From a virus: a DNA stretch of 64,000 nucleotides. Location: positions 1-64,000 of IMG/VR virus record IMGVR_UViG_3300031952_000010, one strand, 5' to 3'. Under the pieces are notes generated by a model. The model worked only from the letters and a program-made list of their open reading frames with translations. It did no database searches and was not told where the DNA came from. Each line of letters opens with the position of its first letter. Within the stretch, counting starts at the first letter, position 1. Both the position numbers and the translations under genes were made by a program. Positions 13,235-62,325 of the stretch are shown one piece after another.

Positions 13235-13277
13235 GTTGTATATTTATGTTTATGGTGTGATATAACAAAATTACCAG

Positions 13278-13284
13278 TATTTAT
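13278..13284 (+). promoter_or_regulatory. Late-type TATTTAT box
   Basis: The box ends 4 bp before the ATG at 13289. Confidence 0.6.
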
Positions 13285-13288
13285 TAGT

Positions 13289-14248
13289 ATGGAAGTTATT
13301 ATAACAAAAAAACAATTTGATGAGCTATGTGTCTCTGAGGTGTGTATCTCTGAGTTGAAGACTCTATTGAATAATGTTGGTACTAAAAACACTTTCCGTA
13401 AACCTATTGATTTGATGTTAGACAGACATAAAATACCATTGGACAAAGGTTCAAAACAATTCAAAAAAGATAGAACTATCTTAAAACAATACTTTAATTT
13501 TTCTGGTGAAGAAATTGATAAATTAATGGATATTAAAATGATTTATGATGCTAACGGTAAATGGACGCCAATTAACAAATTAAACACCAATTACAGTGAT
13601 TTATCGGTCCTTGTGACTGATATGTTAGTTGGGGAGGGAAAATGTATCTGTAAGATAGTTGAGGACCTTAAAAAGAAGGATAATACCGTTATTTTAGATT
13701 TGGCAAATAGAATGACAAAAGAACCTGAACATTTTTACCAAACTTATCTTAAAGGTAATTTTGACAAATATATTGAGAACAACAGGAGAAACACATTGAA
13801 GGGTAATGAAACTGAATTGTTTGTTGTTGATGAATTAGTTAAGTTAGGTTATAAAATCATTTTCATTGCTGATGAAGGTAGCCCAATCGATACCAAGTTA
13901 AGTGTTGATATTATTATGGAAAAAGATGGGAAGGCGTTTAAGTTCCAAGTTAAATCTATTGGTAGTATTACTGAAATAAATGAAACTCCTTGTGACATTT
14001 CAAATCCTGGTATAAAAGAACCAGGTGGATTTAAAGTCTTCAAAAAAAATAGAATTAATTTTAATGATTTATATATTGATTATTTAGTATTTGTTGCCCC
14101 AAAAAATAAAATGTTGGTGATGAAAAGATACCAACCTATTACTATCGACAGTATTAAACCATTGGTTTGTTCTGCAAAACCAATTAATGAATTCCCAAAA
14201 AATAATACCTATATTGACCCTGAATCTGTGGTTTATCAAAATTTTTAA
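13289..14248 (+). CDS. Putative PD-(D/E)xK-type nuclease with class B leader (319 aa)
   Basis: The leader MEVIITKKQFDEL is class B-like. Residues 170-225 show a restriction-endonuclease-fold pattern: a helix with Glu174/Glu176 (KGNETELFVVDELVKLGY), Asp207 in SVDIIM and Gln220-Val-Lys222 in FKFQVKS. Together these fit the E-xn-D-xn-(E/Q)xK core. Residues 20-150 look like a helical N-terminal domain. If packaged and injected it could attack host DNA or a competing element; both target and delivery are inferred. It is followed 2 bp later by the gene at 14251. Confidence 0.6.
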   Translation: MEVIITKKQFDELCVSEVCISELKTLLNNVGTKNTFRKPIDLMLDRHKIPLDKGSKQFKKDRTILKQYFNFSGEEIDKLMDIKMIYDANGKWTPINKLNTNYSDLSVLVTDMLVGEGKCICKIVEDLKKKDNTVILDLANRMTKEPEHFYQTYLKGNFDKYIENNRRNTLKGNETELFVVDELVKLGYKIIFIADEGSPIDTKLSVDIIMEKDGKAFKFQVKSIGSITEINETPCDISNPGIKEPGGFKVFKKNRINFNDLYIDYLVFVAPKNKMLVMKRYQPITIDSIKPLVCSAKPINEFPKNNTYIDPESVVYQNF

Positions 14249-14250
14249 TA

Positions 14251-14625
14251 ATGGAAATTAAGATACAAGAAACTAGATTGAACGATATTATTAATAAACA
14301 ATTTGACAGTATGTTTGATGTTTATAATCTCCATTGGACGATGGTAGAGGATGATTATGGTAATGAAACTGATGATGCTGCAGTATTTTACTTAGGTGAT
14401 TACGGTGATGACGAAGTTTTATTTAGGTGGTATGGTGAAAATTATTGGATTACGGATAAAATGAGGAATGTTAATCATGTTTTATTGGCAAAATCACCAA
14501 TTTTAGAATTTGAGGATTTACAAAAAAAAGAACTGTTAGATAACATGTTTGGGGATAGATGGGAAAAACCATTTAAAATTTGGTTTGATAAACATTTTGA
14601 TATTAAGATTAAAACAATAGAATAA
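14251..14625 (+). CDS. Class B-like leader protein, paralog family (124 aa)
   Basis: The leader MEIKIQETRLNDIINKQFD aligns with class B. The body is very acidic and Tyr-rich, and the end (NMFGDRWEKPFKIWFDKHFD) is the best match to the C-terminal block of the gene at 7499. It lies in an operon with the nuclease-like gene at 13289. Function is unknown. Confidence 0.65.
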   Translation: MEIKIQETRLNDIINKQFDSMFDVYNLHWTMVEDDYGNETDDAAVFYLGDYGDDEVLFRWYGENYWITDKMRNVNHVLLAKSPILEFEDLQKKELLDNMFGDRWEKPFKIWFDKHFDIKIKTIE

Positions 14626-15126: not shown

Positions 15127-15573
15127 ATGAATAGAAGTTTTACAAAACAAAGAAAAATACAAGAAGCCAATATGTTATTGGAAAATAGATTCTTGATTAA
15201 AGAACGTAGAGAAGAAAGAGATAAAGACTCAAATAACTGGTATACCGCTCAAGACCCAACATCTAAAAAGTGGAAGATATTCGTACAAACATTTAGTCCT
15301 AAACAAGATAAAGACCCTTCTAAAACACCAAATGACCCATTATTTAAGGATTATACTAAATATTGGGTTGAATATAGTACGGAAGCAAACGCGGACGCGG
15401 CCTTGGTTAATTTAATGTCTGACATGAAATCAGGTAAAAAATCAGAATCTAATGTAACTACGACAACCACCACATCTTCTTCGGTAACCACAAATACGAC
15501 TACGGTAGCCCCTCAATCGGATAGTTCAAACGAAGTTAATTCTTACCTTACAAATATTTTAGGGTTAAATTAA
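15127..15573 (+). CDS. Leader-like protein with Thr/Ser-rich tail (148 aa)
   Basis: The N-terminus has two candidate cleavage sites, MLLE/N (about 19) and LIKE/R (about 26). Residues about 35-90 form a charged domain, and residues 109-135 are a low-complexity Thr/Ser/Val linker, followed by a short helix. The gene at 58112 has a similar Thr-rich tract. Probably a virion or surface-associated protein; not recognised. Confidence 0.55.
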   Translation: MNRSFTKQRKIQEANMLLENRFLIKERREERDKDSNNWYTAQDPTSKKWKIFVQTFSPKQDKDPSKTPNDPLFKDYTKYWVEYSTEANADAALVNLMSDMKSGKKSESNVTTTTTTSSSVTTNTTTVAPQSDSSNEVNSYLTNILGLN

Positions 15574-18614: not shown

Positions 18615-19802
18615 ATGAACAATATAGATAAAAAATACCAAGAGTTACTTCAAGACATTTTAGGTAACGGTATAAAGAAAAAAGACAGAACGGGTACAGG
18701 TACCATTTCAGTATTTGGTAGACAAATCCGTCATAAAATGAGTGAAGGGTTTCCATTACTTACAACTAAAAAAATGCCATTCAAAACAATCACAACAGAA
18801 TTGTTATGGTTCCTTCAAGGCAACACAAACATCAAATATCTTGTTGATAACAATTGTCATATTTGGGATGGTGATGCGTATAAGAATTATCTACATAAAG
18901 TTATTCGTGATAAAGACATTCTACATTATCTAAAATCATATTCAGTAGACGCCAATGGTGTGCCAACTATTGAACCTTATTCTCAAGAAGAATTCATCAA
19001 CAAAATTAAAACAGATGATAAGTTTGCTAAGAAGTGGGGTGAGTTAGGTCCAATTTATGGTAAGCAATGGAGAAGTTGGGGTAGAAAAAATGTAGTAAAT
19101 TATGATTTAGAAAATGTAAAAAGTTCTGACCAAGTTAAGGTTATGGACTTAATTCGTAATGATGGTGATTATAGTAAATATGATGTTAAAGTAACGTACC
19201 AAAATAATTCAATAGACCAAATCGCAAATCTAATCAACGAACTTAAAACAAATCCAGACTCAAGACGATTAATGGTTAATGCTTGGAATGTGGGTGATTT
19301 GGATAAAATGACTTTACCACCTTGTCATTATGGATTTCAAGTTTATACAAGAGAATTAAAGAAGTTAGAACGAATAAACATTGCTATTGAAAGAAAACTA
19401 ACACATGAAACGGCTCATTTAACCAAAGACTTTGATTACCAAAAATGGTGTGATGAACAAAATATCCCAACCAGAGCAATCTCTTTAATGTTTAATATGA
19501 GAAGTACCGACGTAGGATTGGGGTTGAGTTTCAATTTATCATCATACGGATTATTATTGATGATGATTGCTAAACAAGTTAATATGGTTCCTGACGAATT
19601 GATTTACAATGGCGGAGACGTTCATTTATATCTTAATCACATTGAACCGATTAAAGAACAATTAATAAGAGAACCATATGAATTACCTATTCTAAAATTA
19701 TCCGATAGAGTCGTTAATGATATTTCGGAATATACTTTGGATGATATTAAACTTGAAGGTTACCAGTCACATCCGACAATAAAATTACCACTTTCTAATT
19801 GA
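18615..19802 (+). CDS. thyA: Thymidylate synthase (395 aa)
   Basis: It converts dUMP to dTMP using methylenetetrahydrofolate. DRTGTGT (24-30) is the phosphate-binding loop, Cys237 in LPPCHYGFQ is the nucleophile, and FNMRSTDVGLGLSFN and NGGDVHLYLNHIEPIKEQ are conserved. At 395 aa it is much longer than the usual 264-316; extra segments lie at about 95-140, 155-200 and 246-285. These positions vary in other ThyA proteins. The catalytic residues are intact. Confidence 0.95.
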   Translation: MNNIDKKYQELLQDILGNGIKKKDRTGTGTISVFGRQIRHKMSEGFPLLTTKKMPFKTITTELLWFLQGNTNIKYLVDNNCHIWDGDAYKNYLHKVIRDKDILHYLKSYSVDANGVPTIEPYSQEEFINKIKTDDKFAKKWGELGPIYGKQWRSWGRKNVVNYDLENVKSSDQVKVMDLIRNDGDYSKYDVKVTYQNNSIDQIANLINELKTNPDSRRLMVNAWNVGDLDKMTLPPCHYGFQVYTRELKKLERINIAIERKLTHETAHLTKDFDYQKWCDEQNIPTRAISLMFNMRSTDVGLGLSFNLSSYGLLLMMIAKQVNMVPDELIYNGGDVHLYLNHIEPIKEQLIREPYELPILKLSDRVVNDISEYTLDDIKLEGYQSHPTIKLPLSN

Positions 19803-31617: not shown

Positions 31618-32439
31618 ATGTTATTAAAAAAAGGGTCTAAAGGTGAAGACGTTAAAAAACTACAATCAAAATTAGGTCTAGTGGCTGACGGTGATTTCGG
31701 TTCTGGAACTGAAACTAAAGTAAAAGAATGGCAATCCTCAAACGGATTAACCGCCGATGGTGTCGTTGGAGACGGTACTTGGGGTAAAATGTTTGGTGGT
31801 GAAGTGATAAAAAAAGATGTGGTTATCCCAACAGGAGGACCATTAAAATTGGAAAAATTAAAAGGTCACGTTCCTGATGCGGTTATCTCACAAATTCCTG
31901 AAACTGCTGCGAAGTTTAATATAACTAACCCATTAAGATTAGCTCACTTCTTGGCACAATGTGGTCATGAAAGTGGTGGATTTAAAGCGGTTAGTGAAAA
32001 TGTTAATTATTCTGCTGATGGTCTTAAAAAGATTTTTGGGAAATACTTTCCTGGTAACTTAAATGAGTCTTACGCTCGTCAACCTGAAAAAATTGCTGCA
32101 AGAGTGTACGCTGACCGTATGGGTAATGGTAATGAAGCGTCAAAAGAAGGGTTTAAATTTCGTGGAAGAGGGTATATCCAATTAACTGGAAAATCAAACT
32201 ACACAAACTTTGCCAAATTTATTGGTGAAGATACGGTAACAAATCCTGATTTAGTTGCTACAAAATATCCATTAGCTTCCGCAGCATTTTTCTTTGATTC
32301 AAACAAACTTTGGTCAATATGTGATAAAGGAGCTGACGTTACCACGGTAACTGCGGTCACAAAAAGAGTTAACGGTGGTACTATCGGATTAGAAGATAGA
32401 ATCAAACACTTTAAAGAATATTATTCATTATTATCATAA
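31618..32439 (+). CDS. Endolysin: peptidoglycan-binding domain plus GH19 (273 aa)
   Basis: Residues 3-58 form a PG_binding_1 repeat (LLKKGSKGEDVKKLQSKLG, DGDFGSGTETKVKEWQ, DGVVGDGTW). Residues about 78-273 are a glycoside hydrolase 19 (chitinase-like lysozyme) domain: Glu118 in CGHESGGF is the likely catalytic acid, and FRGRGYIQLTGKSNY (181-195) and TKRVNGGTIGLEDR are family signatures. There is no signal peptide, so it needs a holin. It has its own terminator. Confidence 0.9.
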   Translation: MLLKKGSKGEDVKKLQSKLGLVADGDFGSGTETKVKEWQSSNGLTADGVVGDGTWGKMFGGEVIKKDVVIPTGGPLKLEKLKGHVPDAVISQIPETAAKFNITNPLRLAHFLAQCGHESGGFKAVSENVNYSADGLKKIFGKYFPGNLNESYARQPEKIAARVYADRMGNGNEASKEGFKFRGRGYIQLTGKSNYTNFAKFIGEDTVTNPDLVATKYPLASAAFFFDSNKLWSICDKGADVTTVTAVTKRVNGGTIGLEDRIKHFKEYYSLLS

Positions 32440-62130: not shown

Positions 62131-62325
62131 CAAATCTTACATAAGACGGATTAGCACCGTTGAAAGGAACCTTGGCTTCACCGCGGAGTAATTACCGTAA
62201 CAGAAGTTCTAAATGCCCCAAGGTACTATGTAATGGACCCTGCTCTGATGTGCACGTCAACAGGTGATGGGGAACAAACCATCGGTCAAATCTAAACCTA
62301 CGGTGAGCGTAGAAGATTTGTTTTT
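62131..62325 (+). ncRNA. Candidate structured RNA (about 190 nt)
   Basis: CAAATCTT (62131-62138) and AAGATTTG (62313-62320) form a closing helix followed by TTTTT; inside, ACCTTGG/CCAAGGT (62169/62218) pair. The segment is discrete between tRNA-Leu and tRNA-Glu with no coding frame. Family unknown. Confidence 0.45.

Follow-up and report, generated by a model that had tools for sequence, protein, structure and literature searches.

ORF P0001, encoded in the IMG/VR virus record IMGVR_UViG_3300031952_000010, harbors in residues 161-281 a PD-(D/E)xK nuclease of the PDDEXK_5/I-Ssp6803I kind, an assignment for which the evidence is strong and which is accompanied by an invariant active site. The encoded protein may be a late-made, metal-dependent DNA endonuclease that is packaged in the phage head by means of its leader, injected into the next host and directed against non-self DNA. 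This is a tentative reading on which we are close to evenly divided, with moderate support for the packaging in the head. The DNA analyzed here, referred to as the window, comprises bases 1-64000 of the 91,511-base record; the features of interest are the following.

13278..13284, + strand: TATTTAT box resembling a late promoter, situated 4 nt ahead of the P0001 ATG (position 13278, its first base, is where the sequence-only reading had let the feature start)
13289..14248, + strand: ORF P0001, 319 aa, free of internal stops; dN/dS 0.12-0.13 versus three relatives
13289..13327, + strand: leader, residues 1-13 (MEVIITKKQFDEL); matrix score 10.2, low pLDDT in residues 1-10
13328..13768, + strand: N-terminal helical domain, residues 14-160; pLDDT 82-97 in most blocks
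13574-13600, + strand: NKLNTN..D motif, residues 96-104; N96, K97, L98, N99, N101 and D104 present in 41/41 representatives
13769..14131, + strand: PD-(D/E)xK nuclease domain, residues 161-281, placed by profile matches, conservation and predicted fold
13814 (E176), 13907 (D207), 13946-13954 (Q220-V-K222) and 14078 (D264), + strand: residues of the nuclease domain
14132..14245, + strand: C-terminal tail, residues 282-319; predicted to be disordered, pLDDT <50
14251..14625, + strand: next gene, 124 aa, acidic (pI 4.6) and leader-bearing; likely on the same transcript as P0001, for which it might act as a partner

The ORF is real and under strong purifying selection. Close relatives are found on three other IMG/VR contigs with 83-85% identity and the same neighborhood, and dN/dS is lowest in the nuclease part (0.083, three relatives compared). 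A scan of the genome contig collection with P0001 revealed no close relatives.

The nuclease domain and its family

In Pfam, P0001 matches PDDEXK_5 (PF11645) with an E value of 0.013 and 15.9 bits, which is below the curated cut-off of 26.1, while the match to phrog_5018 of the PHROGs, a group of unknown annotated function, reaches E 2.8e-6. A search of INPHARED for the nuclease domain returned a single weak row (E 0.9), and this weak phage match opened the route to 13 small phage proteins, all of which match both PF11645 and phrog_5018. The profile of these 13 PDDEXK_5 proteins identifies I-Ssp6803I (2ost) in the PDB with E 8.6e-17, and in a profile-profile comparison the core of P0001 matches it with a probability of 94.9 and E 4.1e-8, aligning G172-x3-E176, D207, Q220-V-K222 and D264. 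Judged by these matches, the P0001 family appears to be a relative of PF11645 that is located outside its curated limits. Two further hits, BrxF in PADLOC (E 0.007) and ChpT in NCBIfam (E 0.04), were judged to be due to chance.

To delineate the family, the P0001 alignment was run against 45 leader-bearing phage records, and the joint alignment of the distant relatives thus obtained was then used to query IMG/VR. At least 102 loci were recovered, the best 80 of which were taken; 79 of these gave an ORF (L195 did not). After omission of duplicates, the incomplete L205 and proteins shorter than 240 aa, 58 proteins including P0001 were left, which fall into 41 clusters at 85% identity. Among the 41 representatives, N96, K97, L98, N99, N101, D104, G172, E176, D201, D207, Q220 and K222 are invariant, while D264 is found in 40 and E174 in 8. 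Residues 14-160 represent a family-specific domain of 147 residues that carries the invariant NKLN(T/S)N..D motif. From the sequence alone, a PD-(D/E)xK fold had been proposed with D207...QVK222 as its core and E174/E176 as additional residues. All of these residues are present at the positions given, and the fold as well as the D207/E176/QVK222 core are borne out by the predicted structure and by invariance in 41/41 members. The role of E174 as a catalytic residue has to be given up, as it is not conserved (8/41), in contrast to E176 (41/41). The predicted catalytic set is E176-D207-Q220-K222, with E174 outside it.

Weak Pfam matches (E ≤0.1) among the 41 include several PD-(D/E)xK families, namely PDDEXK_5 (5/41), AHJR-like (3), Mrr_cat (2) as well as UPF0102, NgoPII and YqaJ (one each), along with unrelated single ones. 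A profile of the whole family produced merely marginal, unrelated rows against PDB sequences (best E 0.017, a DNA polymerase), PF11645 gave one weak match under the cut-off across 44 leader-phage records, and no match came from two degenerate DNA patterns or from querying with one metagenomic relative. When the family alignment was compared with GTDB genomes in a single pattern-based scan, which divergent members could escape, 52 stretches fit one pattern and none was confirmed.

The AlphaFold2 prediction of P0001, built with the 41 family sequences, has a pLDDT of 79.4 and a pTM of 0.75, with residues 282-319 unstructured; an earlier prediction from 4 sequences was poor (pLDDT 40.7) and was set aside. 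Foldseek with the final model placed 2ost in rows 1-3 (E 2.5e-3 to 2.5e-2), followed by Hjc, with no rows below 1e-3. In VIA, I-Ssp6803I (2ost) ranked highest with Z 8.6 over 107 residues, ahead of archaeal Hjc (Z 7.9), SPARDA nucleases (Z ~7; 9qcc 7.1) and then splicing and restriction endonucleases, with most rows spanning residues 167-316 of P0001 only. A Z of ~8 is middling according to the tool's own note; the fold is nevertheless taken as firm because it is backed by the match at sequence level and by the invariant residues. The structure search that the sequence-only reading had called for thus found a PD-(D/E)xK fold both in the prediction and in the fold comparison, and the claim does not fail for want of such a fold.

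A comparison with predicted structures of viral proteins yielded two long proteins of uncultured phages that match P0001 over most of its length (E 9e-6), one of which, 501 aa long and named superoxide dismutase, is perhaps a fusion. Another superoxide dismutase, of the Mn/Fe type, is encoded at L130:605-1279 (PDB match E 2e-59, residues 25-219) with an N-terminal extension of ~24 residues, immediately 5' of a family nuclease gene (L130:1279), with which it overlaps.

The TATTTAT box and the leaders

P0001 is preceded by a second TATTTAT box at 13241. In the 91.5 kb record, the motif occurs ≤60 nt upstream of 38 out of 123 genes, compared with 5.6 ± 2.2 in shuffles, on the coding strand and often 4 nt before the ATG. 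The box on which the sequence-only reading had relied is therefore real. It is present in front of 11/16 leader genes versus 27/107 other genes of the record (p 0.001), ≤40 nt upstream of 73/124 leader genes of other phages, and ≤45 nt upstream of 22/41 nuclease-family members (P0001 was entered by hand as positive). As it stands before leader-type genes, the box probably functions as a late promoter; a literature search yielded no paper on it.

At least 13 other proteins of the record display the N-terminal pattern MK-hydrophobic-(T/N)E-x-x-L. On a matrix built from the N-termini of 13 other proteins of the record, with P0001 excluded, the P0001 leader scores 10.2. Scores this high occur in 1/1849 internal blocks and, among 30,400 shuffled N-termini, in 0.14%; the 13 seeds were picked by eye, and 3/13 score below P0001 upon leave-one-out. 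One leader of the record led to 129 relatives in IMG/VR on very different bodies, 80 of which (79 loci) were kept. In 62 of the 79 loci, the leader is common to non-homologous bodies, and 124 distinct leader ORFs were collected at a score ≥12, of which 123 entered the family scans (one minus-strand ORF was left out). At the loci in question (L045-L123), no fewer than 124 distinct ORFs bear KKIIKLTESDLxRIVKRVIxE or a shorter kind of this leader, and their bodies include ArdA antirestriction, lysozyme, LysM, SLT and peptidoglycan-binding domains. In class A leaders (88/124), hxE occupies one fixed place in 86/88 cases and conservation ends after that E. The strings LTESDL, KIIKLTE, IIITENQ and IRLTESD were not found in the literature searched, and of two leader searches in INPHARED one gave no row and the other 3 chance-level rows.

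The leader of P0001 belongs to class B, the shorter kind, and has K as residue 7, i.e. it is devoid of hxE at the place where most of its relatives carry it. In the AlphaFold2 model, VSE15-17 and ISE20-22 lie within the helices with which the folded body begins, and the leader's score against other N-termini is 43, below the 95th percentile of internal controls (45). The proposal of a virion-type leader thus finds support in family and context (shared leader, hxE in relatives, S77 protease, box), and does not extend to an hxE cleavage site at the relatives' place in P0001 itself. Across the box genes of the record, a general N-terminal enrichment of [ILVM]xE was not found (19/38 vs 0.41 of internal blocks), while [ILVM]xEQ is enriched (7/38 vs 1/196).

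Within the nuclease family, several leader kinds are found on one body. [ILV]xE is present in the first ~32 residues of 35/41 members versus 175/349 internal blocks, and the best leader scores have a median of 45 versus 37 for internal controls. For L138 and L141, the leaders score 94 and 81, respectively, against N-termini of non-homologous proteins (control maximum 53). Those of L150 (MIKKYNEFIKEG) and L151 (MKKYSDLISEA) resemble MKTYQEFIAEA of T4 ipII/ipIII, and a T4-leader regex, written after the sequences had been seen, matches 2/41 family members and 1/726 other proteins. In T4, the internal-protein leader directs proteins into the head (PMC7411985, PMC12373910), and Ip1-3 have only such a packaging leader in common (PMC12373910); the prohead proteases of T4 and of giant phages cleave behind a glutamate (PMC5694885). 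Elsewhere in the window (15127-15573), the N-terminus MNRSFTKQRKIQEANMLLENRF resembles by eye the leader of the L138 nuclease (MNRSYSKIRHIQESNKILENRL), with bodies that look unrelated.

Phage context and neighboring genes

The terminase and portal of the phage are T4-type, their best rows being phrog_2 and phrog_213, which we take to be the T4 gp17 and gp20 groups. A Peptidase_S77 prohead protease is encoded at the record end (90812-91252; E 5e-24, 80.4 bits vs a cut-off of 27). S77 was likewise detected in 7/38 family records, many of which are fragments; among the 9 of these records >140 kb, 6 have it. As to the acidic gene downstream of P0001, same-strand next genes in the family have a pI <4.5 in 15/32 cases and preceding genes in 17/34, vs 19% of 726. 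Since preceding genes are equally acidic, a function as nuclease inhibitor is not claimed.

Several other genes were noted in passing. The gene at 18615-19802 of the window, presumably thymidylate-synthase-like, is strongly different in the counterparts of L002 and L003, and a base-modification role is possible. An endolysin-like protein with PG_binding_1 and Glyco_hydro_19 is encoded at 31618-32439. A freshwater-1 RNA (RF02979, 84 bits) is located at 62229-62290 within a region of 27 tRNA genes, and the phage that carries P0001 is freshwater-type. In L139, the gene after the nuclease is on the minus strand and DNA-polymerase-like with an apparent intein end; L150 and L151 share this neighbor, from which the intein end appears to be missing (all by eye).

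Proposed role, rival explanations and known systems

In the preferred reading, P0001 would be synthesized late and its leader would most likely dock the protein to the T4-type prohead core, so that it would be packed with the genome and ejected at the next infection. We infer that the injected enzyme would then cut DNA other than the phage's own, be it that of the host, of plasmids or of a competing phage. The packed genome could be spared if the head is short of free metal, if the N-terminal domain locks the enzyme or if the DNA is modified. Dormancy of a nuclease in the head seems feasible, because a foreign nuclease packaged in T4 acts once calcium is added (PMC3012670). By extension, there may be a widespread family of capsid-packaged, injected PD-(D/E)xK nucleases with T4-type and other leaders exchanged on one body that destroy host, plasmid or rival DNA at entry, which we consider possible, if rather doubtful. 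The injected proteins known from T4-type phages act by blocking restriction or by modifying RNA polymerase; if true, a packaged nuclease would be cargo of an offensive kind, and one would have to ask how the phage's own genome persists alongside it in one capsid. Moreover, the leader offers a way to recognize from sequence the proteins that many uncultured phages, a large group, would inject, and with at least 102 loci (41 clusters at 85% identity in the retained set) the nuclease family is large enough for the idea to be put to the test.

Given that, among solved structures, the homing endonuclease I-Ssp6803I comes nearest and that family members occupy several different gene neighborhoods, P0001 could instead be a free-standing homing endonuclease, i.e. 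a selfish element that cleaves a target in related phages and propagates through repair. The leader with the upstream TATTTAT box, the extra 147-residue domain conserved across the family, the strong purifying selection on P0001 and the absence of group I introns from the 64-kb window (Rfam, gathering score) argue against such an element, which is therefore unlikely. The box would also suit a late Holliday-junction or branch resolvase of the phage's own cycle that prepares concatemers for packaging, with a leader for docking to the prohead but no post-injection role. Archaeal Hjc as second-best fold (Z 7.9) and the depositors' names of some PDDEXK_5 relatives, annotated as Holliday junction resolvases, point in this direction. 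Yet, both sequence and fold of P0001 are nearer to I-Ssp6803I, and the conserved N-terminal domain would be left unexplained. T4 gp49-type resolvases are not known to carry such leaders, which further speaks against this role, and we regard it as improbable.

A different objection concerns the packaging itself: P0001 might act within the infected cell that produces it, with the 'leader' being a common N-terminal strand-helix start and no packaging signal. The moderate evidence from P0001's own leader and its lack of a clear cleavage site are in line with this. Against a common start stand a leader on non-homologous bodies in 62/79 loci, the fixed hxE end of class A leaders, the leader-box association and the leader exchange in L138 and L141, and we regard action solely in the producing cell as unlikely. 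The packaged and injected nuclease remains the preferred reading.

A family combining the leader, the conserved extra domain and an I-Ssp6803I-type nuclease was not found in the libraries and literature searched, nor did the literature searched contain an injected or packaged nuclease family of this type; the fold and the leader principle are already known. The T4 proteins IPI, IPII, IPIII and Alt likewise carry a short N-terminal leader on unrelated bodies in a phage with a T4-type prohead protease, and the hxE in most nuclease-family members as well as the L150 and L151 leaders, close to those of ipII/ipIII, extend this likeness. In contrast to P0001, IPI-III and Alt are restriction inhibitors and an ADP-ribosyltransferase and include no nucleases, and the P0001 leader is of another class without a clear hxE end. 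I-Ssp6803I, PDDEXK_5 (PF11645) and phrog_5018 share the G-x3-E, D, QVK and late D of the core and offer the best fold match. PDDEXK_5 and phrog_5018 proteins are mostly small and single-domain, whereas P0001 possesses the extra 147-residue N-terminal domain and the leader and scores below the Pfam cut-off. The core fold also resembles that of archaeal Hjc Holliday junction resolvases (Z 7.9), which follow an E..D..x-x-K pattern with E in ExK; P0001 differs by Q in place of this E, the extra domain and the leader. A similar core fold is found in the SPARDA effector nuclease (9qcc, Z 7.1), which is part of a bacterial defense complex, while no such partner is seen beside P0001. Finally, the concept of injected DNases that act against rival DNA or for host arrest is shared with the phage polyvalent proteins, which are virion-packaged multi-domain effectors (PMC5512222); these are large and combine ParB-like and other domains, whereas members of the nuclease family are small and some bear a T4-type leader.
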